A stretch of DNA of 64,000 nucleotides from Rhodohalobacter halophilus (GTDB lineage Bacteria > Bacteroidota > Rhodothermia > Balneolales > Balneolaceae): contig NZ_MDWE01000005.1 in assembly GCF_001715195.1 (NCBI RefSeq), positions 1-64,000 on the forward strand, given 5' to 3'. Positions 1,367-11,386 of this stretch are shown here, one piece after another; the stretch's first letter is position 1; each line of letters opens with the position of its first letter. The notes under the pieces were generated by a model, which was not told the DNA's origin, did no database searches, and saw only the letters and a program-made list of their open reading frames with translations. The translations under genes were made by a program, and so were the position numbers.

Positions 1367-2341
1367 CTATAGCCATCCATTTTGTTTATACCATCTCAAT
1401 GTTCTGGAAATCCCTTCTTCGAGAGTGTATTCCGGTTTGTAATGAAGCTCCTTTCTTGCTTTATGGTCAGAGCAAGTCCACTCAAGAATCATTTCCTTCG
1501 CTTTTTCCCGGTTTATAACGGGATACAACCCGAAAAATGATGCAGATGTTTCAATAGCACCGGAAATCTTCTTTACCCAATTGGGATTTAATTTAATCGG
1601 AATATTTTTCTTTCCAAGAACTGTTGTCACGATATTTCGAATGATGTTCCAGTTTGCTATTCGGTCTCCATCAATAAAGTAGGAGTGAACGCCCGGCTCT
1701 TTTTGCTTCGCTGCTTTCAGAATAGCCTGGATCACATCCTTTACATACACGATGGAGAGTTCGGGATGATATCCATCGCCAACGATGGGGGCAACTCCGT
1801 ATTTCATCATTTTAAAGAGCGTAAAAATTTGATCTTCCCTCGGCCCGTATACGGCAGGAGGCCGCAAAATAGTAATCGACATATCTGCCGGTGCCACTTC
1901 GCGAATCATCTCTTCCATTTTCTTTTTGGACTCCCCATACATGCTCACCGGTTCCATCGGGTCATCTTCTGTTTTAGGTGAACCATTACTGGGGCCTGCC
2001 GCAGCGAGAGAGGAGAGGATGACCATTTTTTTAATTCCCTTCTTGATGGCAAGGCGAAGCAGATTTTCAGTTGCTTCTACATTCGCATAGTCAAACTCTG
2101 CTTGTGTAGGAGCTTTAACAATTGCAGCTATATGAAAAATAACGTCTACATCATCCAGAGCAAGATCAATCTTTTTGATGGAGTGTAAATCGCCTTTTAT
2201 CTTTTCATAGCTTTTATTTTCGAGCCACTTTTCCCGGCTTCGTACCAGACACTTTACTTTTCGGTAATCGGGATGATCGAGCAGGGAGTCTACAAGATGG
2301 CTGCCAATAAAACCGGTTCCTCCGGTAACAAATGCGTTCAT
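1367..2341 (-). CDS. NAD(P)-dependent epimerase/dehydratase, extended SDR; candidate sphingolipid keto-reductase (CerR-like)
   Basis: The 324-residue protein starts with a Rossmann motif (TGGTGFIGSHLVD, residues 6-18), has an SS-LAA serine region and the YGESK catalytic YxxxK motif near residue 136, and carries the 3beta-HSD-like C-terminal part of extended SDRs. On sequence alone it is only a sugar-epimerase or steroid-dehydrogenase-type oxidoreductase. Its position, divergent from two glycosyltransferases, serine palmitoyltransferase and a GNAT acyltransferase, suggests the ceramide reductase role assigned to an epimerase-like protein (CerR) in Caulobacter. There it reduces the 3-keto group left by serine palmitoyltransferase. 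The family call is firm; the CerR role is inference. A nucleotide-sugar epimerase serving the glycosyltransferases is the main alternative. Confidence 0.88.
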   Translation of the reverse strand: MNAFVTGGTGFIGSHLVDSLLDHPDYRKVKCLVRSREKWLENKSYEKIKGDLHSIKKIDLALDDVDVIFHIAAIVKAPTQAEFDYANVEATENLLRLAIKKGIKKMVILSSLAAAGPSNGSPKTEDDPMEPVSMYGESKKKMEEMIREVAPADMSITILRPPAVYGPREDQIFTLFKMMKYGVAPIVGDGYHPELSIVYVKDVIQAILKAAKQKEPGVHSYFIDGDRIANWNIIRNIVTTVLGKKNIPIKLNPNWVKKISGAIETSASFFGLYPVINREKAKEMILEWTCSDHKARKELHYKPEYTLEEGISRTLRWYKQNGWL

Positions 2342-2427
2342 ATAATTCTTATATTCTGTGCTTTACATGAGATAACTCAAACTGGGCTGAGATGAAGATA
2401 CAAAGTTGCCCACTGCATTAAAACTTT

Positions 2428-3561
2428 ATGAGCAGGTTCAAGGTCGTTCTATTTACCGGAAATTATAATCATATACGAGATGGTGTATCGCTTACGCTGA
2501 ACAGACTAGTCCGGTTTTTACTGGATCATGATGTGGATGTAAGGGTTTTTGGACCTACGATTGATGAACCGGCACTGGACCATGAAGGTACGTTTATTGC
2601 CGTGCCTTCGCTCAGTCTTCCCGGGCGCCCGGAGTACAGGATGTCAACATCACTCTCGTCAGAAGCAAAACGTCATCTAAGAGATTTTAAACCGGACCTG
2701 GTTCACATAGCCACACCCGATGTACTCGGCTATAAAGCATTGCGCTGGGCAATGGATCACAAGATTCCGGTTGTTTCATCTTATCACACACATTTTCCCA
2801 GTTATTTGAAGTACTATAAGCTCTCAGTGCTTGAGCCGCTGCTCTGGAAGTATCTGAATTGGTTTTACAGCCATTGTGAGCAGCTCTATGTGCCCACACA
2901 ATCTATGGCAGAGTGGCTGCAGGAGCAGGGTGTTCAGACAGACTTAAAGATCTGGGCACGTGGAATTGAAACCGATCGTTTTGGCCCCTCCAAAAGAGAT
3001 GAAGCCTGGAGGGAATCGCACGGCATTAACCCGGGTGAAGTTGTCATTACATTTATTTCGCGGCTCGTTTGGGAGAAAAATCTGGAACTGTATGCGGATG
3101 TTGTCAAGATGATTCAACAAAAACATGATCACGTAAAGGCACTGGTTGTGGGCGAGGGGCCGGCCGGTGAGGGACTGAAACAGATGCTGCCCGATGCAGT
3201 TTACACAGGATTTTTAACGGGTGAAGATTTGTCGAAGGCGTATGCCAGCAGTGATGTCTTTTTCTTTCCATCAGATACGGAGACGTTTGGAAATGTAACC
3301 CTTGAAGCGATGGCCAGCGGCTTGCCTTGTGTGGTAGCTGATGCCGTGGGAAGTAAATCGTTGGTAGATCACGAAGAGAATGGATATCTTGCGCCGGTCG
3401 ATAAAACTGATCTTTTTTACTCTTATATTGAAAAGTTGGTTCTCAATCCCGATTTGAGAAAAAAGATGGCTGATGCTTCCCTTCAAAAAGCAAAGAAGTA
3501 CAGTTGGCAAAACATAAATGGAAATCTGCTCAGCTATTATGAGCAAGTGTTAGGATTATAA
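2428..3561 (+). CDS. Glycosyltransferase family 4 (MgtA/diglucosyl-lipid type)
   Basis: This 377-residue GT-B glycosyltransferase has the GT4 layout. The N-terminal acceptor domain contains GVSLTLNRLVRFLL and the phrase KPDLVHIATPDVLG. The C-terminal nucleotide-sugar domain contains FISRLVWEKNLEL, VVGEGP and an E-x7-E-like segment at FFFPSDTETFGNVTLEAMASG. It resembles GDP-mannose- or UDP-sugar-dependent enzymes that glycosylate membrane lipids (MgtA and diacylglycerol glucosyltransferase type). It is cytoplasmic and probably membrane-associated. It is followed after 9 bases by a second GT4 and then by serine palmitoyltransferase, so a ceramide or long-chain-base acceptor is plausible. Donor and acceptor cannot be read from the sequence. 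Confidence 0.9.
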   Translation: MSRFKVVLFTGNYNHIRDGVSLTLNRLVRFLLDHDVDVRVFGPTIDEPALDHEGTFIAVPSLSLPGRPEYRMSTSLSSEAKRHLRDFKPDLVHIATPDVLGYKALRWAMDHKIPVVSSYHTHFPSYLKYYKLSVLEPLLWKYLNWFYSHCEQLYVPTQSMAEWLQEQGVQTDLKIWARGIETDRFGPSKRDEAWRESHGINPGEVVITFISRLVWEKNLELYADVVKMIQQKHDHVKALVVGEGPAGEGLKQMLPDAVYTGFLTGEDLSKAYASSDVFFFPSDTETFGNVTLEAMASGLPCVVADAVGSKSLVDHEENGYLAPVDKTDLFYSYIEKLVLNPDLRKKMADASLQKAKKYSWQNINGNLLSYYEQVLGL

Positions 3562-3570
3562 GCAGTTAGC

Positions 3571-4680
3571 GTGCGAATACTTTATATATCACATTTACAC
3601 CCGCCCAAAGATGAGCCGCTGGAGAATGTTGGCGGTATGCAAAATGTCAGTGTTCAGATGGTCCATGCAATGAAGCGGAGGGATGATGTTGAGATGGAGA
3701 CGATTATTCTGAACACCTCCTGGAAATTGATTGGCATAAAAACATTCTTTTTTTTAGTAAGCTTATTGTGGCGAATTCCCGCCACAGCTAAAAAATTTAA
3801 CCCGGATGTAATTCTCTTCTCCTCGATGGTTACAGCCGGAGTTCTGCCATTTATGATAAGGCAGCCAAAGGCTCCATGTGTAACCATTAATCACGGGCAG
3901 GATGTTACCCTTCCGTTTTTTATTTATCAATGGTACATAAAATATGTATTTCGGAAACTTCAGGGTGTTATTTCAGTATCATCTGCTACCCGTCAGGCTT
4001 GCATTGATCGAGGAATGGATCCTGAGATCGGTGTTGCGCTGCCAAATGGTTTTGATATGAGCGTGTTGAAAAAGCTTCCTGAGAAAGAAGAGGCCAGGAA
4101 AATTCTTGAGGAAGAATTTAATGTTGACCTCTCTGATAAAAAATTATTGCTCACTGTTGGACGACAGGTGAAACGGAAAGGCCACCAATGGTTTATAGAT
4201 GAGGTATTCCACAAGATTGATAAGAATACAATCTATTTGATAATTGGTGATGGACCTGAAAATCAAAATATTCAAAAAGCCAGAGAACGATCATCAGAAA
4301 AAGAACGAATAATTATTGCGGGGAAACAGCCGGAATCAATTTTGAATGCTGCCTACGCAGGATCGGACTTGTTTATAATGCCCAACATACCTGTTGAAGG
4401 AGATATGGAAGGATTTGGGATTGTATTGCTGGAGGCCAATCGAGCAGGTGTTCCGGCCATCACCGCAGATCTCGAGGGCATGAAGGATGTGATAGAACCG
4501 GGTGTAAACGGCTACAGAGTTCCTCACAGTGATGCAGAATCTTTTTCAAAAAAAGTGAATGATGTTTTGAAAAATAACCTTCAGGAGTTATCAATTTCTG
4601 CAGAGAAATATGTAAGAGAAAATTTTAACTGGGATACCGTTGTAAACAGGTATATCAGCTTCCTTAAGAGTGTACACTAA
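3571..4680 (+). CDS. Glycosyltransferase family 4
   Basis: The 369-residue protein begins at a GTG (MRILYISHLHPP) 9 bases after the preceding GT4 stop, so the two form a transcriptional pair. The N-terminal part has the GT4 glycine-rich loop (ENVGGMQNVSVQM) and a short hydrophobic stretch around residues 50-70 (TFFFLVSLLWRI) that could dip into the membrane. The donor domain has LLTVGRQVKRKG, IIGDGPE and an EGFGIVLLEANRAGVPA segment, the usual E-x7-E region. It probably adds a second sugar to the same lipid or oligosaccharide acceptor as its neighbour. Substrates are unknown; glyco-sphingolipid synthesis is suggested only by the adjacent spt gene. Confidence 0.9.
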   Translation: MRILYISHLHPPKDEPLENVGGMQNVSVQMVHAMKRRDDVEMETIILNTSWKLIGIKTFFFLVSLLWRIPATAKKFNPDVILFSSMVTAGVLPFMIRQPKAPCVTINHGQDVTLPFFIYQWYIKYVFRKLQGVISVSSATRQACIDRGMDPEIGVALPNGFDMSVLKKLPEKEEARKILEEEFNVDLSDKKLLLTVGRQVKRKGHQWFIDEVFHKIDKNTIYLIIGDGPENQNIQKARERSSEKERIIIAGKQPESILNAAYAGSDLFIMPNIPVEGDMEGFGIVLLEANRAGVPAITADLEGMKDVIEPGVNGYRVPHSDAESFSKKVNDVLKNNLQELSISAEKYVRENFNWDTVVNRYISFLKSVH

Positions 4681-4706
4681 AAAGGTAACACTCGGGTTAC
4701 TATAAT

Positions 4707-4736
4707 TTGATAGAAGCGTAATACTCGGTATATTTA
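4707..4736 (+). promoter_or_regulatory. Bacteroidota-type promoter of the spt operon
   Basis: TTG at 4707-4709 is followed after exactly 19 bases by TATATTTA (4729-4736), matching the Bacteroidota sigma-A pattern TTG-N19-TAnnTTTG except for the last base. It lies 30 bases before the spt ATG, so spt can be transcribed independently of the upstream glycosyltransferases. Confidence 0.65.
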
Positions 4737-4765
4737 CCCGATTAATGAAAATGTAATTTGTTAGC

Positions 4766-6016
4766 ATGGCCGATTCGAAAGCCGATTCAGTTCAAAGGAA
4801 AATATTTAAGAAAGCATACGACTTTACCAAAGCCGATGAAATCAAGGAGCAGGGGCTCTATCCGTACTTTAAACCCTTGCAGGCAACCGATGGTACAACT
4901 GTTCAGATTGAAGGACGCGAAGTAATCATGGCGGGTTCCAACAACTATTTGGGACTGACCAACGATCCGAGAGTAATCAAAGCAGCACAAGATGTAATTG
5001 GAACGTACGGTACAGGCTGTACCGGTTCCCGATATTTAAACGGAACGCTCGATCTGCATCTTGAACTTGAAGAGAAGCTCGCAAAGTTTATGAACAAGGA
5101 AGCCTGTGTACTTTTTAGTACCGGCTATCAAACCAATGAAGGTTCCATTCAGACCATCGCCGGCCGGAATGATATCATTTTTTCTGACCGCGATAACCAC
5201 GCATGTATTGTAGTAGGTACACAGGTATCAAACGCTAAGACCGTGCGGTATCGCCACAACGACATGGAGCATTTACGAACCATGCTTGAGAAGGCAGATC
5301 CCGATGCGGGTAAAATTATTATCAGTGACGGAGTTTTCTCCATGTCCGGCACACTGGCTAAAGTGCCCGAATTGGTCGCACTGGCCAAAGAGTTTGGTGC
5401 TGCACTCTACCTTGATGACGCCCACGCTGTAGGAGTTGTGGGGGATGGGGGACGCGGAACCGCCTCAGTTTTTGGGTTGTCTGATGATGTTGATCTAATT
5501 AGCGGAACGTTTTCTAAATCATTTGCATCACTCGGTGGGTTTATCGTTGGAGACCGTGCCGTGATAGAGTTTATACGCCATCAGTCACCCGCGCATATTT
5601 TTAGTGCGAGCATGCCGCCGGCCAACGTGGCTACGGTTCTAAAATCGCTCGAAATTTTACAGGAAGAGACGTGGAGACTTGAGCGATTGGAAGAGATTTC
5701 AAACTATATGCGAAGAGAGCTTCGTAATCTTGGGTTCAACGTTTGGTCCAGCCAGACGCCCATTATTCCGGTTGTGATCGGGGAGATGTACGACTGTTTC
5801 CGTTTCTGGAAAGATCTGTTCGAAGAGGGTGTTTATGTGAATGCTGTGGTGCCGCCGGCTGTTCCGCGCGGTCAGGCCCTTGTTCGTACAAGCTACATGG
5901 CAACCCATACGGATGAACATCTCGATAAAATTTTGAGTGCATTCAGAACGGTTGGCATAAAACACGGAATAATTGATAAAAACGGCCGCTCACTTATCGA
6001 CGCTGACGTAGAATAA
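4766..6016 (+). CDS. spt: Serine palmitoyltransferase (alpha-oxoamine synthase family)
   Basis: The 416-residue PLP enzyme belongs to the alpha-oxoamine synthase family, which includes serine palmitoyltransferase, KBL and BioF. Visible signatures are AGSNNYLGL (residue 56 on), TGSRYLNGT (86 on), the cofactor-stacking histidine in DRDNH (144), LDDAHAVG (217 on) and the Schiff-base lysine in GTFSKSFASLGG at about K251. The unusual N-terminus (FTKADEIKEQGLYPYFKP) is characteristic of bacterial SPT rather than BioF. SPT condenses L-serine with palmitoyl-CoA or acyl-ACP to 3-ketosphinganine, the committed step of sphingolipid synthesis. No biotin genes are nearby; a GNAT acyltransferase follows after 11 bases and an epimerase-like reductase lies upstream, which supports SPT over BioF. 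Confidence 0.85.
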   Translation: MADSKADSVQRKIFKKAYDFTKADEIKEQGLYPYFKPLQATDGTTVQIEGREVIMAGSNNYLGLTNDPRVIKAAQDVIGTYGTGCTGSRYLNGTLDLHLELEEKLAKFMNKEACVLFSTGYQTNEGSIQTIAGRNDIIFSDRDNHACIVVGTQVSNAKTVRYRHNDMEHLRTMLEKADPDAGKIIISDGVFSMSGTLAKVPELVALAKEFGAALYLDDAHAVGVVGDGGRGTASVFGLSDDVDLISGTFSKSFASLGGFIVGDRAVIEFIRHQSPAHIFSASMPPANVATVLKSLEILQEETWRLERLEEISNYMRRELRNLGFNVWSSQTPIIPVVIGEMYDCFRFWKDLFEEGVYVNAVVPPAVPRGQALVRTSYMATHTDEHLDKILSAFRTVGIKHGIIDKNGRSLIDADVE

Positions 6017-6027
6017 TTGATCGAATA

Positions 6028-7161
6028 GTGGAAAGTACTCCTAAGAGCAACACGGTTACCTACATCACTTCCGATTCAGAAAAGAAGGAGTTTATCAACT
6101 TTCCCTATTCCCATTACGAGGATGAAAAATATTGGGTGCCGCCACTCTTGATTGAGCAGAAAAAACTGCTTAACACTTCAAAAAACCCGTTCTACAACAA
6201 TGCTGAAATTGCCCTGTTTAACGCAGAGCACAATGGGAAACCGGCAGGCAGGATTGCTGCCATCATCGATCACCGGTATAACGATTTTCATCAGACAAAA
6301 ACCGGGTTTTTTGGTTTTTTCGAGTGTATTGATCGCCAATCTACGGCAGACCTTCTTTTTCGTGTAGCTGAAGATTGGTTACGGGAAAAAGGGATGAAAG
6401 ATGTTCTGGGGCCTTCTAACCCAAGCATGATGGACGAATTGGGAATTTTGGTTGAAGGATTTGATAAATATCCGACCATCCTGATGCCGTATCATAAACC
6501 CTACTATGATAAGTTGCTGAGCGGTGCAGGCTATGAAAAAGCGATGGACTTGCTGGCATACCTGGTTACGCAGGACAGTGTTGATCGCGACCGGGCCAAC
6601 CGAGCCATGGAGATTGTAAAAAAACGTCTGCCGGGAATTTCAATTCGGAAGATCAGGCTGAAAAAAATCAAGGAGGAGGTTAAAATCATCCGGGAAATTT
6701 TCAATTCAGCCTGGAAAAATAATTGGGGTTTTATTCCACTTTCTGAAGATGAATTTGATGCACTTGCCAAAGATTTAAAAACCATTGTTGATCCGGATTT
6801 TGCTCACATTGCAGAAATTGACGGAAAGCCGGTGGGTTTTTCAGTAGCTCTGCCCAACTACAACCAGATTCTGAAAGATATGAACGGTAAGCTGTTGCCG
6901 TTTGGCTGGTTGAAGATTTTATTGAACAAAAAAAAGATCAATAAAATACGTACCGCATTGATGGGAGTGATTCCGGAATATCAAGGGCGTGGAATTGATG
7001 TATTACTCCATCGGGAAGCGATTGAAAATGGTCTCGAAAAAGATGTCTACTCTTCTGAAGTGGGATGGATCCTGGAAACTAACGTGCAGATGGTACGCGT
7101 AGCCGAAAAAATTGGCGGCACACTCGATAAGCGATATCGAATGTATCGCAAAGATTTATAG
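6028..7161 (+). CDS. GNAT-fold acyltransferase; candidate bacterial ceramide synthase (CerS-like)
   Basis: The 377-residue protein starts at GTG 6028, 11 bases after spt. It is about twice the length of a simple GNAT domain. The C-terminal part has the acyl-CoA binding motif A (IPEYQGRGIDVLLHREA, about residue 315 on) followed by SEVGWILETNVQMVRVAEKIGG, the family's closing strand-helix. The N-terminal half (FINFPYSHYEDEKYWVPPLL, LGPSNPSMMDELGIL) is typical of large uncharacterised GNATs found beside bacterial sphingolipid genes. In Caulobacter a GNAT-superfamily protein is the ceramide synthase that N-acylates the long-chain base. The fold call is firm; the ceramide synthase role rests on the spt neighbourhood. 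Confidence 0.8.
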   Translation: MESTPKSNTVTYITSDSEKKEFINFPYSHYEDEKYWVPPLLIEQKKLLNTSKNPFYNNAEIALFNAEHNGKPAGRIAAIIDHRYNDFHQTKTGFFGFFECIDRQSTADLLFRVAEDWLREKGMKDVLGPSNPSMMDELGILVEGFDKYPTILMPYHKPYYDKLLSGAGYEKAMDLLAYLVTQDSVDRDRANRAMEIVKKRLPGISIRKIRLKKIKEEVKIIREIFNSAWKNNWGFIPLSEDEFDALAKDLKTIVDPDFAHIAEIDGKPVGFSVALPNYNQILKDMNGKLLPFGWLKILLNKKKINKIRTALMGVIPEYQGRGIDVLLHREAIENGLEKDVYSSEVGWILETNVQMVRVAEKIGGTLDKRYRMYRKDL

Positions 7162-7306: not shown

Positions 7307-8680
7307 ATGAGTGAATTCCGCATTGAAAGAGACTCTATGGGCGAAGTGAAAGTACCCAAAAACGCATATTATGGAGCACAAACACAGCGTGCTTTTGATA
7401 ACTTTCCAATCAGTAAAATCCGGTTTAACAGAGATTTTATTTCGGCACTTGGCCGGGTGAAGCATTCTGCCGCAAAGGTGAATGCCGATCTCGGTTTACT
7501 GGATGAGAAAGTTGCAACTGCTATTCAGGCTGCAGCACAAGAGGTGATCGAAGGTAAATTTGATTCTGATTTTGTGCTCGATATTTTTCAGACCGGTTCA
7601 GGTACCTCCACAAATATGAACTCGAATGAGATCATTTCTAAACGAGCAAATGAACTGAAAGAGGATACGGATGTAACCATCCACCCAAACGACCATGTGA
7701 ACTACGGACAGAGTTCAAATGATGTGATTCCTACCACCATCCGGATTTCTGCTGTACTTGCCGTTCGTCATAATTTATTGCCTGCGCTAAAGCATCTTCA
7801 TCAAACCATTCTGGAGAAAGGGGAGGAGCTGAAAGATGTGGTGAAAACCGGAAGAACTCATCTGATGGATGCTATGCCTGTAACCATTCAACAGGAATTT
7901 AGTGGTTATGCTCGCCAGATTGAACTTGGAATCAAGCGTGTTGAATCAGCTCTTGAGCGAATGCTTGAGCTTCCGCAGGGTGGAACAGCCGTGGGAACGG
8001 GGATCAACACTCATGAAGAGTTTGGTGCTAAGTTTGCCGCTGAGGTCGCGAATGCTACAGGAGAAAAATTTCGGGAAGCAGAGAACCATTTTGAAGCGCA
8101 GGCCACTGTGGATGCCCCTGTTGAGCTTAGCGGTCAATTGAAAACAATTGCAGTTGGATTAATGAAAATCGGAAACGATTTCAGGTGGATGAACTCCGGA
8201 CCTAACGGAGGATTGGGTGAGGTTCAGCTTAAAGCCCTTCAGCCGGGATCGTCCATCATGCCGGGTAAAGTAAATCCGGTGATTGAGGAGTCGCTAACGA
8301 TGGTTTGCGCCCAGGTAATCGGAAATGATGCAACAATCACAGTGGCGGGGCAATCCGGGAATTTTGAACTGAACGTGATGCTGCCTGTGGTTGCTCATAA
8401 CTTGCTTCAGTCGATCGAAATTTTGGCAAACGCTGCCCGTAATTTTGCAGACAGATCCGTGAGCGGACTTGAAGCAAGACGAGAAGTAATCAGTCAGATG
8501 GTAGGTAAGAATCCAATTCTGGTTACGGCATTAAATCCTCTGATTGGGTACGATAAGGCAGCGAAAATAGCGAAGAAAGCTTTTGCTGAAAACCGATCTG
8601 TAATGGATGTTGCTAAAGAGATGACAGACCTTTCGGTTGAAGAGCTTGAAAAAGCACTCGACCCTATTAACATGACTTAA
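7307..8680 (+). CDS. fumC: Class II fumarate hydratase
   Basis: The 457-residue protein is the normal length for FumC and starts with the family hallmark RIERDSMGEVKVPKNAYYGAQTQRA. It carries GSGTSTNMNSNE, the TGRTHLMDAMPVT active-site region and the lyase signature GSSIMPGKVNPV with its mobile catalytic loop at about residue 317. It interconverts fumarate and malate in the citric acid cycle and needs no iron-sulfur cluster. It stands alone, with a hairpin terminator about 30 bases downstream; the next gene, also in central metabolism, has its own leader. Argininosuccinate lyase and aspartase share the signature but lack this N-terminus. Confidence 0.97.
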   Translation: MSEFRIERDSMGEVKVPKNAYYGAQTQRAFDNFPISKIRFNRDFISALGRVKHSAAKVNADLGLLDEKVATAIQAAAQEVIEGKFDSDFVLDIFQTGSGTSTNMNSNEIISKRANELKEDTDVTIHPNDHVNYGQSSNDVIPTTIRISAVLAVRHNLLPALKHLHQTILEKGEELKDVVKTGRTHLMDAMPVTIQQEFSGYARQIELGIKRVESALERMLELPQGGTAVGTGINTHEEFGAKFAAEVANATGEKFREAENHFEAQATVDAPVELSGQLKTIAVGLMKIGNDFRWMNSGPNGGLGEVQLKALQPGSSIMPGKVNPVIEESLTMVCAQVIGNDATITVAGQSGNFELNVMLPVVAHNLLQSIEILANAARNFADRSVSGLEARREVISQMVGKNPILVTALNPLIGYDKAAKIAKKAFAENRSVMDVAKEMTDLSVEELEKALDPINMT

Positions 8681-8737: not shown

Positions 8738-8980
8738 AAGTTAATTTGTAACTCCCTCTCATACGTTTGGAAGGGGAGATAAAGAGCCTGATACAATAAA
8801 CCATCAAGGAAAGTAAATCGGTCGAATTTTGATCGATCACCGATTCATTTTTGTTCAAAAAGTAGCTGATTCTGATGTAGATAGATTCAGTTTCACTCTT
8901 TTTTGAAAATTAAACACAGGGCCGTATTATTCCGCCGCCCGAATTTTGCGCAAGAAACGTTAAGTAAACTTTTGAGACTT
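8738..8980. other. Leader region upstream of the E1 fusion gene
   Basis: About 240 bases without a convincing gene. An in-frame TTG at 8903 would extend the next protein by 26 residues, but the added sequence (KIKHRAVLFRRPNFAQETL) is not like family N-termini. The region more likely holds the promoter and untranslated leader. No strong promoter match or riboswitch fold was recognised by eye. Confidence 0.4.
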
Positions 8981-11386
8981 ATGAGCAAGCAAGCAACGAA
9001 AGAAAAGAAGAATAAAAAGACCGATAATATTCTAAATGACTACAAACTTGTTTGCATGAGTCGTGAAATGTCGCTTCTGGGCCGAAAAGAGGTGCTGACG
9101 GGCAAAGCAAAATTTGGAATTTTTGGTGACGGAAAAGAGCTTCCGCAGCTTGCACTTTCCAAACATTTTAAAAATGGGGATTTTCGATCGGGATACTATC
9201 GCGATCAAACCATTATGATGGCAATTGGTGAACTGACGGTTGAACAGTTTTTTGCACAGCTCTATGCCAATCCGGATACAGAGAAAGATCCGAATTCGGG
9301 AGGACGACAGATGAACGCTCACTTTGCCACACGCCTGATAGATGATGAGGGAAACTGGATCGATCAAACTGCCCAAAAAAATACATCTGCAGATATGTCG
9401 CCAACCGCGGGACAAATGGCGCGGCTATTGGGATTGGCACAGGCATCCAAAGTGTATCGAGAGAATGATCTACTGAACGACTGGAAGCAGTTTTCAGATA
9501 ACGGGAATGAGATTGCCTGGGGCACCATCGGGGATGCCAGTACATCGGAGGGAATTTTCTGGGAAACGATCAACGCGGCCGGAGTACTTCAGGTGCCAAT
9601 GGTCATTTCGGTTTGGGATGATGGCTATGGTATTTCTGTCTCCAAAAAGTATCAGACTACAAAGGAGAGCATCTCTTCAGTTTTACGCGGTTTCAAGCGT
9701 ACGAAGAAACAGCCGGGCTTTGAAATCATTAACGTGAAGGCGTGGGACTATCAGGCACTTCTTGATGCGTACGCTGAAGCATCAAAAATTGCTCGAGAAG
9801 AGCATGTCCCCGTTCTGGTTCATGTAGAGGAGGTGACACAGCCGCAAGGGCACTCAACGTCCGGTTCACACGAGCGTTACAAAGACGAAGACCGGCTGAA
9901 TTGGGAGGAGGAGTACTGCTGTATCAATCAATTCAGAAAGTGGATTGAGAAGGAGAAACTGGCAAAGTCTGATGAGCTGGATAAAATTGAGGAGGAAGCG
10001 AAAAAAGAAGTTCGCGAGGCTCAGAAGAAAGCTTGGAAAGAGTATCAGGATCCGATCAAACAGCAGAGAGATGAAATGTTGGCGCTCATCGACCGTTTGA
10101 TCTCCAATCACAGTGATGTGACGAAACTGGAGGAGATCAAAAAAGGGTTAAGCAGGAAAAATAATGTGATCCGAAAGGATGTGATTTCAGTCGGGCGACA
10201 GGTACTATTTGCTCTTAGAGGCAAAGAGTCCGGAGCAAAAAGCGATCTGATCAAATGGCTCGATCACCAGCAGGAGGAAAATCAGCAACGTTTCAATTCA
10301 AATCTGCTAAGCGAAACCCCTAACTCTCCGCTTACTGTTGATGAGGTAGAGCCGTCCTACTCTGATGATGCAAAGAATGTAGACGGCCGTGTTGTTCTGC
10401 GCAACAATTTCGACAAGATTTTTGAGAAATATCCGAATGCACTCGTTTTTGGTGAGGATGTTGGTCAGCTCGGGGATGTAAACCTCGGCCTGGAAGGCAT
10501 GCAGGAGAAGTACGGAGAGTTGCGTGTGAGTGACACCGGTATTCGGGAAGCAACCATTTTGGGGCAAGGAATCGGCATGTCGCTGCGAGGTTTGCGACCG
10601 ATTGCTGAAATTCAATATCTGGATTACCTGCTCTACTGCTTTCAGGGTTTGAGTGATGATGTTGCCACTGTTCGATACAGAACGAGCGGCGGCCAGGCCT
10701 ATCCGCTGATTGTGCGTACACGCGGACATCGATTGGAAGGGATCTGGCACTCCGGCTCGCCGATGGGAATGATTATCAACGGAGTGCGCGGGGTTCATGT
10801 ATGCGTGCCCCGAAATCTGACGCATGCTGCAGGATTTTATAACACGCTTTTCCAGGGTGACGACCCGGCGCTCATTGTAGAGCCGCTCAATGCCTATAGG
10901 CTGAAAGAGAAATTGCCTGATAATCTTGGGGAATTTACACTTCCACTTGGAATCCCTGAGGTGGTACAGGAAGGGGAGGATATTACGGTAGTGTCTTACG
11001 GATCTACTTTTAACCTCGCAGAGTCGGTGCTTCCGCAGTTTGAGGAAGCCGGTATTTCAGTTGAACTAATTGATGCCAGAACTCTCCTTCCATTCGATCG
11101 AAACGGAATGATTTTGGAATCCCTGAAAAAGACCAATCGAATTCTTTTTGTGGATGAGGACGTTCCTGGAGGAGCAACCGGTTATATGATGCAGCAGGTG
11201 ATAGACGAACAGGGGGGCTATCGCTACCTCGACTCAGAAGTGAAGTGCCTGACTGCACAACCTCACCGTCCGGCCTACGCTACTGATGGGGATTACTTTT
11301 CAAAACCGAATGCTGAAGATATCTTTGAGACAGTTTATGAAATCATGCATGAGGCGAATCCGGGAAAATATCCGGCTATTCGGTAA
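8981..11386 (+). CDS. 2-oxoacid dehydrogenase E1, fused alpha and beta subunits
   Basis: The 801-residue protein from ATG 8981 joins both halves of a thiamine-diphosphate E1. The alpha part (about residues 20-340) has the SGYYRDQT substrate region and the ThDP motif GDASTSEGIFWE through WDDGYGISVS. After a charged coiled-coil linker rich in Lys and Glu, the beta part (about 465-801) has FGEDVGQLGDVN, IAEIQYLDY, GIWHSGSP and LPFDRNGMILESLKKTNRILFVDED. It decarboxylates a 2-oxoacid and passes the acyl group to the lipoyl E2. Fused E1 proteins of this type occur in Bacteroidota and are annotated as branched-chain or pyruvate dehydrogenase E1; substrate cannot be decided here. No E2 or E3 gene is adjacent. 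The TTG at 8903 is a less likely start. Confidence 0.93.
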   Translation: MSKQATKEKKNKKTDNILNDYKLVCMSREMSLLGRKEVLTGKAKFGIFGDGKELPQLALSKHFKNGDFRSGYYRDQTIMMAIGELTVEQFFAQLYANPDTEKDPNSGGRQMNAHFATRLIDDEGNWIDQTAQKNTSADMSPTAGQMARLLGLAQASKVYRENDLLNDWKQFSDNGNEIAWGTIGDASTSEGIFWETINAAGVLQVPMVISVWDDGYGISVSKKYQTTKESISSVLRGFKRTKKQPGFEIINVKAWDYQALLDAYAEASKIAREEHVPVLVHVEEVTQPQGHSTSGSHERYKDEDRLNWEEEYCCINQFRKWIEKEKLAKSDELDKIEEEAKKEVREAQKKAWKEYQDPIKQQRDEMLALIDRLISNHSDVTKLEEIKKGLSRKNNVIRKDVISVGRQVLFALRGKESGAKSDLIKWLDHQQEENQQRFNSNLLSETPNSPLTVDEVEPSYSDDAKNVDGRVVLRNNFDKIFEKYPNALVFGEDVGQLGDVNLGLEGMQEKYGELRVSDTGIREATILGQGIGMSLRGLRPIAEIQYLDYLLYCFQGLSDDVATVRYRTSGGQAYPLIVRTRGHRLEGIWHSGSPMGMIINGVRGVHVCVPRNLTHAAGFYNTLFQGDDPALIVEPLNAYRLKEKLPDNLGEFTLPLGIPEVVQEGEDITVVSYGSTFNLAESVLPQFEEAGISVELIDARTLLPFDRNGMILESLKKTNRILFVDEDVPGGATGYMMQQVIDEQGGYRYLDSEVKCLTAQPHRPAYATDGDYFSKPNAEDIFETVYEIMHEANPGKYPAIR

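Follow-up and report, generated by a model that had tools for sequence, protein, structure and literature searches.

Ceramide is familiar chiefly as a lipid of animals and fungi, and a compact cluster of five genes in the bacterium Rhodohalobacter halophilus raises the question of whether such a cluster could make ceramide and attach sugars to it. The cluster occupies positions 1367–7161 of the stretch of DNA analysed here (the window, 64,000 nt), which belongs to an assembly of 3.12 Mb and 97.8% completeness; placement of the organism in the Balneolales is supported, its named relatives being mostly Balneolaceae. A first-pass annotation had recognized in it a short-chain dehydrogenase/reductase (SDR), two family 4 glycosyltransferases (GT4), a serine palmitoyltransferase (SPT) and a GNAT-type acyltransferase, and had proposed that together they produce and glycosylate ceramide. 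All five open reading frames stand at the coordinates and on the strands given there, and the Pfam family labels agree. Judged from sequence, the proposal that this locus serves for both the synthesis and the glycosylation of ceramide is put at a probability of roughly 75%.

Central to this answer is the gene order. In the window, the SDR gene (cerR) diverges across an 86 bp intergenic region (2342..2427) from a run of four genes, GTa, GTb, spt and cerS, with gaps of 9 bp (GTa to GTb), 85 bp (GTb to spt) and 11 bp (spt to cerS). Among 40 Balneolales genomes sampled from five families (one locus each, mostly about 19 kb), the complete set recurs in identical relative order in 33 loci, the remaining seven comprising six in which GTb is missing or replaced and one whose SDR gene lies beyond the contig end. 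In 39 of 39 loci the SDR gene and GTa diverge, at a median distance of 98 bp; GTa is present in all 40 loci, and a GTb orthologue in 34. This five-gene arrangement is far beyond chance, and the neighbourhood comparison, which the first-pass annotation had suggested as a check, bears out its claim that the GT4 pair is built into the cluster. More widely, the GNAT was found in 97 of 98 sampled Balneolales genomes, and all five genes are present in 29 of 65 loci on named contigs; many of the others are truncated where a contig ends or come from outside the Balneolales.

At the level of the class, SPT is present in 117 of 117 genomes, and spt and the GNAT gene are adjacent in 16 of the 20 loci sampled from outside the Balneolales; in these 20 loci the GT4 pair and a divergent cerR were not found beside spt, one weak SDR match aside. 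Because spt and cerS stand together elsewhere in the class without the GT pair, they appear to form the older core, with the GT4 pair and the divergent cerR as the Balneolales arrangement. The ceramide core itself (Spt, CerS, CerR) is an already-known bacterial pathway; the novelty lies in a five-gene variant, spread through the order, in which a GT4 pair is joined to that core.

The first enzyme of the proposed pathway would be P0004, encoded by spt (4766..6016, + strand; 416 aa; Aminotran_1_2). Tree, active-site residues and structural match all identify it as a serine palmitoyltransferase. Its best solved match is the SPT of Sphingobacterium multivorum (3a2b/8guh, 429 bits), an enzyme of the Bacteroidetes acyl-CoA type and the nearest solved structure; the residues of the pyridoxal phosphate (PLP) site, among them Lys251, are all kept and shared with that enzyme (Tyr for Phe at one), as is Ala281, and in the tree P0004 falls with Rhodothermia SPTs. 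Against NF047600, the NCBI equivalog model for SPTs of the Cytophaga–Flavobacterium–Bacteroides (CFB) group, P0004 scores 504.5 bits where the cut-off is 640. Its tree position and residues thus make it an SPT, but one outside formal membership of that model, although NF047600 is still the closest to it of the named NCBI models. The literature reports the three ceramide genes of Bacteroidota as unclustered (PMC11334938), unlike the situation here.

The same family of alpha-oxoamine synthases also contains the cysteate acyltransferases SulA/CapB, and the locus could be imagined to yield sulfonolipids or another amino-lipid if P0004 were one of these or a further alpha-oxoamine synthase. Sulfonolipids do occur in Bacteroidetes (PMC9304779), a SulA-like protein is encoded on another contig of this genome, and the score of P0004 under the NF047600 cut-off would be compatible with such an identity. 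The diagnostic position decides otherwise: SulA carries Lys281 (PMC9304779), a lysine found in all four SulA/CFAT rows of our alignment, where P0004 has alanine, and in the tree SulA sequences split off into a clade of their own (SH-aLRT 100, by the Shimodaira–Hasegawa-like approximate likelihood ratio test). The true SulA relative of the genome is, moreover, another gene, and SPT is class-wide whereas SulA is confined to one Balneolales family. On Ala281 and the separate clade, a SulA/CFAT identity for P0004 was rejected, and a cysteate-based or other amino-lipid locus is very improbable.

The putative ceramide synthase, P0005 (cerS, 6028..7161, + strand; 377 aa from a GTG start; Acetyltransf_1), is by sequence a tandem-GNAT N-acyltransferase of the CerS/YghO family. 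Over 373 residues it shares 39% identity with Escherichia coli BL21 YghO, a named homologue of Caulobacter CC_1154 (PMC9386255), and it is the best match in its own genome to a CerS profile (452 bits); no NCBI family model was assigned to it in the NCBI model search. In the tree it groups with spt-adjacent GNATs of several phyla, homologues being encoded next to spt or in its vicinity in Rubrobacter, Aureispira, Streptomyces, Sphingomonas, Klebsiella and E. coli as well as in metagenome-assembled genomes (MAGs) of Nitrospirae, Zixibacteria and KSB1. An AlphaFold model (pLDDT, the predicted local distance difference test score, 90.7) has a tandem-GNAT fold, matching 7q3a with Z 24.9 (root-mean-square deviation 3.5, 305 aligned) and N-myristoyltransferases with Z of about 16; the latter likeness would fit an N-acyltransferase working with long acyl chains, the fold alone being no proof of function.

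The third core enzyme would be P0001 (1367..2341, − strand; 324 aa; Pfam Epimerase/3Beta_HSD), a predicted CerR-type extended SDR acting as ceramide/3-ketosphinganine reductase, in which the motifs TGGTGFIG, Ser and YxxxK are intact. A profile built from five cluster-associated CerR proteins selects P0001 as the best in the genome at 263 bits, the next SDR reaching 70, and its identity is 37% to the Aureispira SDR beside spt and 25% to the E. coli BL21 SDR 'epi'. No obvious signal sequence was seen in P0001, whose Rossmann motif starts at residue 5; CerR of Caulobacter is reported to be periplasmic (PMC11087976). The first-pass reading of the SDR and the GNAT as CerR and CerS types is upheld by these profiles, trees and identities, with the Caulobacter proteins represented by their E. 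coli, Klebsiella and Sphingomonas homologues.

An SDR of this kind could also be a nucleotide-sugar epimerase or reductase feeding the adjacent GT4s, with the ceramide reductase encoded elsewhere (for example a KDSR-type enzyme like Tsc10 or BT_0972). The membership of P0001 in the extended SDRs, its Epimerase/GDP-mannose dehydratase Pfam matches and its divergence from the GT genes would suit such a role, and Bacteroides BT_0972, a Tsc10-like enzyme, shows that 3-ketosphinganine reductases of a different type exist (PMC9278070). However, P0001 groups in the tree with SDRs that stand beside spt-cerS in clusters lacking GT genes (Aureispira, Rubrobacter, Streptomyces, Nitrospirae), the other SDRs of the genome fall outside that group, and no curated nucleotide-sugar model reaches its cut-off, so that a sugar-supplying function is unlikely and CerR remains the preferred assignment.

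Another key point concerns the substrate of the GT4 pair. GTa (P0002; 2428..3561, + strand; 377 aa) and GTb (P0003; 3571..4680, + strand; 369 aa, GTG start) each combine Glyco_transf_4 and Glycos_transf_1 domains and carry an E-x7-E motif. The NCBI model nearest to GTa is N-acetylglucosaminyl phosphatidylglycerol synthase (158 bits, under the cut-off of 480), and glycosyl-diacylglycerol synthases score as well. Spt, CerS and CerR might accordingly make ceramide while the GT4 pair, co-located for co-regulation, glycosylates another lipid such as diacylglycerol, phosphatidylglycerol or an outer-membrane glycan carrier. That the core is retained in the six of 40 loci where GTb is lost or replaced, and that spt-cerS occurs without GTs elsewhere in the class, would be in keeping with this. 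Yet the scores against curated models are all far under their cut-offs, and GTa accompanies spt in every one of the 40 loci across five families, a linkage that unrelated glycosyltransferases would not need. Glycosylation of a different lipid is for these reasons unlikely, and ceramide is favoured as the probable acceptor because of the order-wide linkage of the pair to spt, cerS and cerR.

GTb is absent from four sampled genomes of family f3. In two other genomes its slot is occupied by another GT4 (L053 6376-7545 and L055 6369-7535), whose identity to GTa is only about 26% and which probably exchanges the second sugar for another.

Several points weigh against ceramide synthesis and glycosylation by this locus. 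Both activities are predictions for R. halophilus drawn from its genes, P0004 scores below the cut-off of its nearest equivalog model, and the CerR assignment depends on identities of 25–37%. Searches of the Protein Data Bank returned no close solved relative for GTa or GTb, and since the nearest curated models include GT4s of diacylglycerol and phosphatidylglycerol glycosylation, a lipid other than ceramide could be the acceptor. Lipid data from the family can be read either way: Fodinibius alkaliphilus (Balneolaceae) has two glycolipids of unassigned structure on thin-layer chromatography, and glycolipids are listed in other Fodinibius (PMC12260241). Fodinibius genomes carry the five-gene locus, and these glycolipids are compatible with glycosyl-ceramides but not specific, as they could be glycosyl-diacylglycerols.

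With respect to the acyl donor, the first-pass annotation had observed that a dedicated acyl carrier protein (ACP) and acyl-ACP synthetase are absent and had taken this to suggest a different donor. The absence itself is confirmed and extends genome-wide. Neither gene was found near the locus; the whole assembly holds one ACP (a PP-binding protein, on another contig) and no AasR orthologue, its two partial AMP-ligase matches to the BL21 protein scoring about 50 bits, so that both partners of SPT in the Rhodobacterial tripartite system (AcpR, AasR, SPT) are lacking. Published accounts, however, place the AcpR/AasR system in alpha-, beta- and gamma-Proteobacteria and give acyl-CoA as the substrate of SPTs of the Bacteroidetes type (PMC9386255, PMC11324152). 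Given this acyl-CoA use and the existence of ACP-less clusters elsewhere, the missing ACP and AasR are to be expected and imply no new donor chemistry; a novel donor was rejected in favour of the known state of Bacteroidetes-type SPTs.

Comparison with characterized and related clusters places the locus further. In Caulobacter crescentus, the ceramide genes aasR, cerR, acpR, spt and cerS correspond to CC_1165, CC_1164, CC_1163, CC_1162 and CC_1154. The window shares with it homologous spt, cerR-type SDR and cerS-type GNAT genes in one neighbourhood (compared via the BL21, Klebsiella and Sphingomonas counterparts), but lacks acpR and aasR and has two GT4 genes inside the cluster. The E. coli BL21(DE3) cluster of yghO, fatty acyl-AMP ligase, epimerase, ACP and spt, which supplies the 39% identical GNAT and the 25% identical SDR, likewise differs in possessing an ACP and acyl-ACP synthetase, a Rhodobacteria-type SPT and no GT4 pair. 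Closer in layout are the compact trios of spt, cerS and cerR in Aureispira, in Rubrobacter and on Streptomyces plasmids, which are also without ACP and acyl-ACP synthetase and, in Aureispira, have the SDR diverging from spt-GNAT as in Balneolales, though none has a GT4 pair between SDR and spt. The unusual tightness claimed at first pass thus holds against Caulobacter, but not overall. In the Rubrobacter trio, the SDR is followed by a gene of the lipoteichoic acid (LTA) synthase family (L005 10227-12296), possibly a ceramide head-group transferase.

Regarding expression, a promoter-like block, TTTGAT-N17-TATATT (4706..4734, + strand), lies about 60 bp upstream of spt, which we take to resemble Bacteroidetes promoters (TTTG / TAnnTTTG). 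Counting the window, 22 of 41 loci have the strict pattern ahead of spt; the 40 relative loci (1.46 Mb, both strands) contain 24 matches in total, 21 of them before spt. This recurrence makes the earlier suggestion of an own promoter for spt plausible.

Taken together, the pathway may be pictured as follows. Spt would form 3-ketosphinganine by condensing L-serine with a fatty acyl thioester, either acyl-CoA or acyl carried on the one housekeeping ACP. CerS, the tandem GNAT, whose gene is probably co-transcribed with spt, would N-acylate the base, and the CerR-type SDR would use NAD(P)H to reduce the 3-keto group. From nucleotide sugars, GTa would then add one sugar and GTb, in most genomes, a second at the inner membrane, giving a mono- or di-glycosyl ceramide probably destined for the outer membrane. 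Transcription of the GT4 genes can probably read through into spt-cerS, in addition to initiation at the promoter-like element there. Whether acylation or reduction comes first is a matter of dispute in the literature (PMC11087976), and the apparent operon of spt and cerS would fit acylation first. We infer in this scheme the donor, that order, ceramide as acceptor, the sugars and the membrane location.

The family Balneolaceae adds a further layer. The SulA/CapB-type cysteate acyltransferase of R. halophilus, with Lys281, is encoded at 158542-159840 of contig C1 (L003 1357-2658, + strand), distinct from spt, and scores 475 bits to a solved cysteate-C-fatty acyltransferase. SulA is present in all 61 sampled genomes of this family and in none of 37 from the other four Balneolales families; as SPT is class-wide, the family probably has both sphingolipid and sulfonolipid pathways. 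Neither a reductase nor an acyltransferase gene was found beside SulA. A second CerS-family GNAT (GNAT2) stands alone on contig C36 (L012/L082 136-1281, − strand), about 30% (32%) identical to P0005, and among the matches listed, full-length GNAT2 comes from the SulA-carrying family only. Since GNAT2 does not adjoin SulA and 16 of the 61 SulA carriers show only one GNAT, it is at most a candidate for a dedicated sulfonolipid acyltransferase. Further CerS-family paralogues occur in some Balneolaceae (L085 9066-10187 and L087 9074-10195, both + strand), one sharing 41% identity with P0005. Tentatively, and with odds we consider low, SPT might lead to (glycosyl)ceramide and SulA to capnine and sulfonolipid in parallel, the single CerR/CerS pair of the cluster finishing both, a notion in line with the several SulA-bearing Balneolaceae that have only one GNAT. 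If true, a single locus, with its GT4s tied in, would allow a test of the contested sequence in which acylation, reduction and glycosylation occur.

Other observations concern the surroundings and relatives of the locus. The cluster is followed in the window by a fumarase gene (7307-8680) and a fused E1 alpha/beta 2-oxoacid dehydrogenase (8903-11386, + strand), which could supply iso-fatty acid primers if active on branched-chain oxoacids. The GNAT of R. sulfatireducens, also a Rhodohalobacter, is 75% identical to P0005; the closest named copy of the locus (GNAT 88%, spt 94%) is in LKNA01000027.1 (L108), a MAG deposited as Chitinophagaceae that is probably a mislabelled member of the Balneolaceae.

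In the literature searched, neither a description of a Balneolales variant with built-in GT genes nor a report of sphingolipids in Balneolales was found. The locus predicts that glycosylated ceramides would be a lipid class of all Balneolales, an order with many saline-sediment halophiles among its members, and the order offers a natural experiment in its genomes with two GTs, with one GT and with a swapped second GT.

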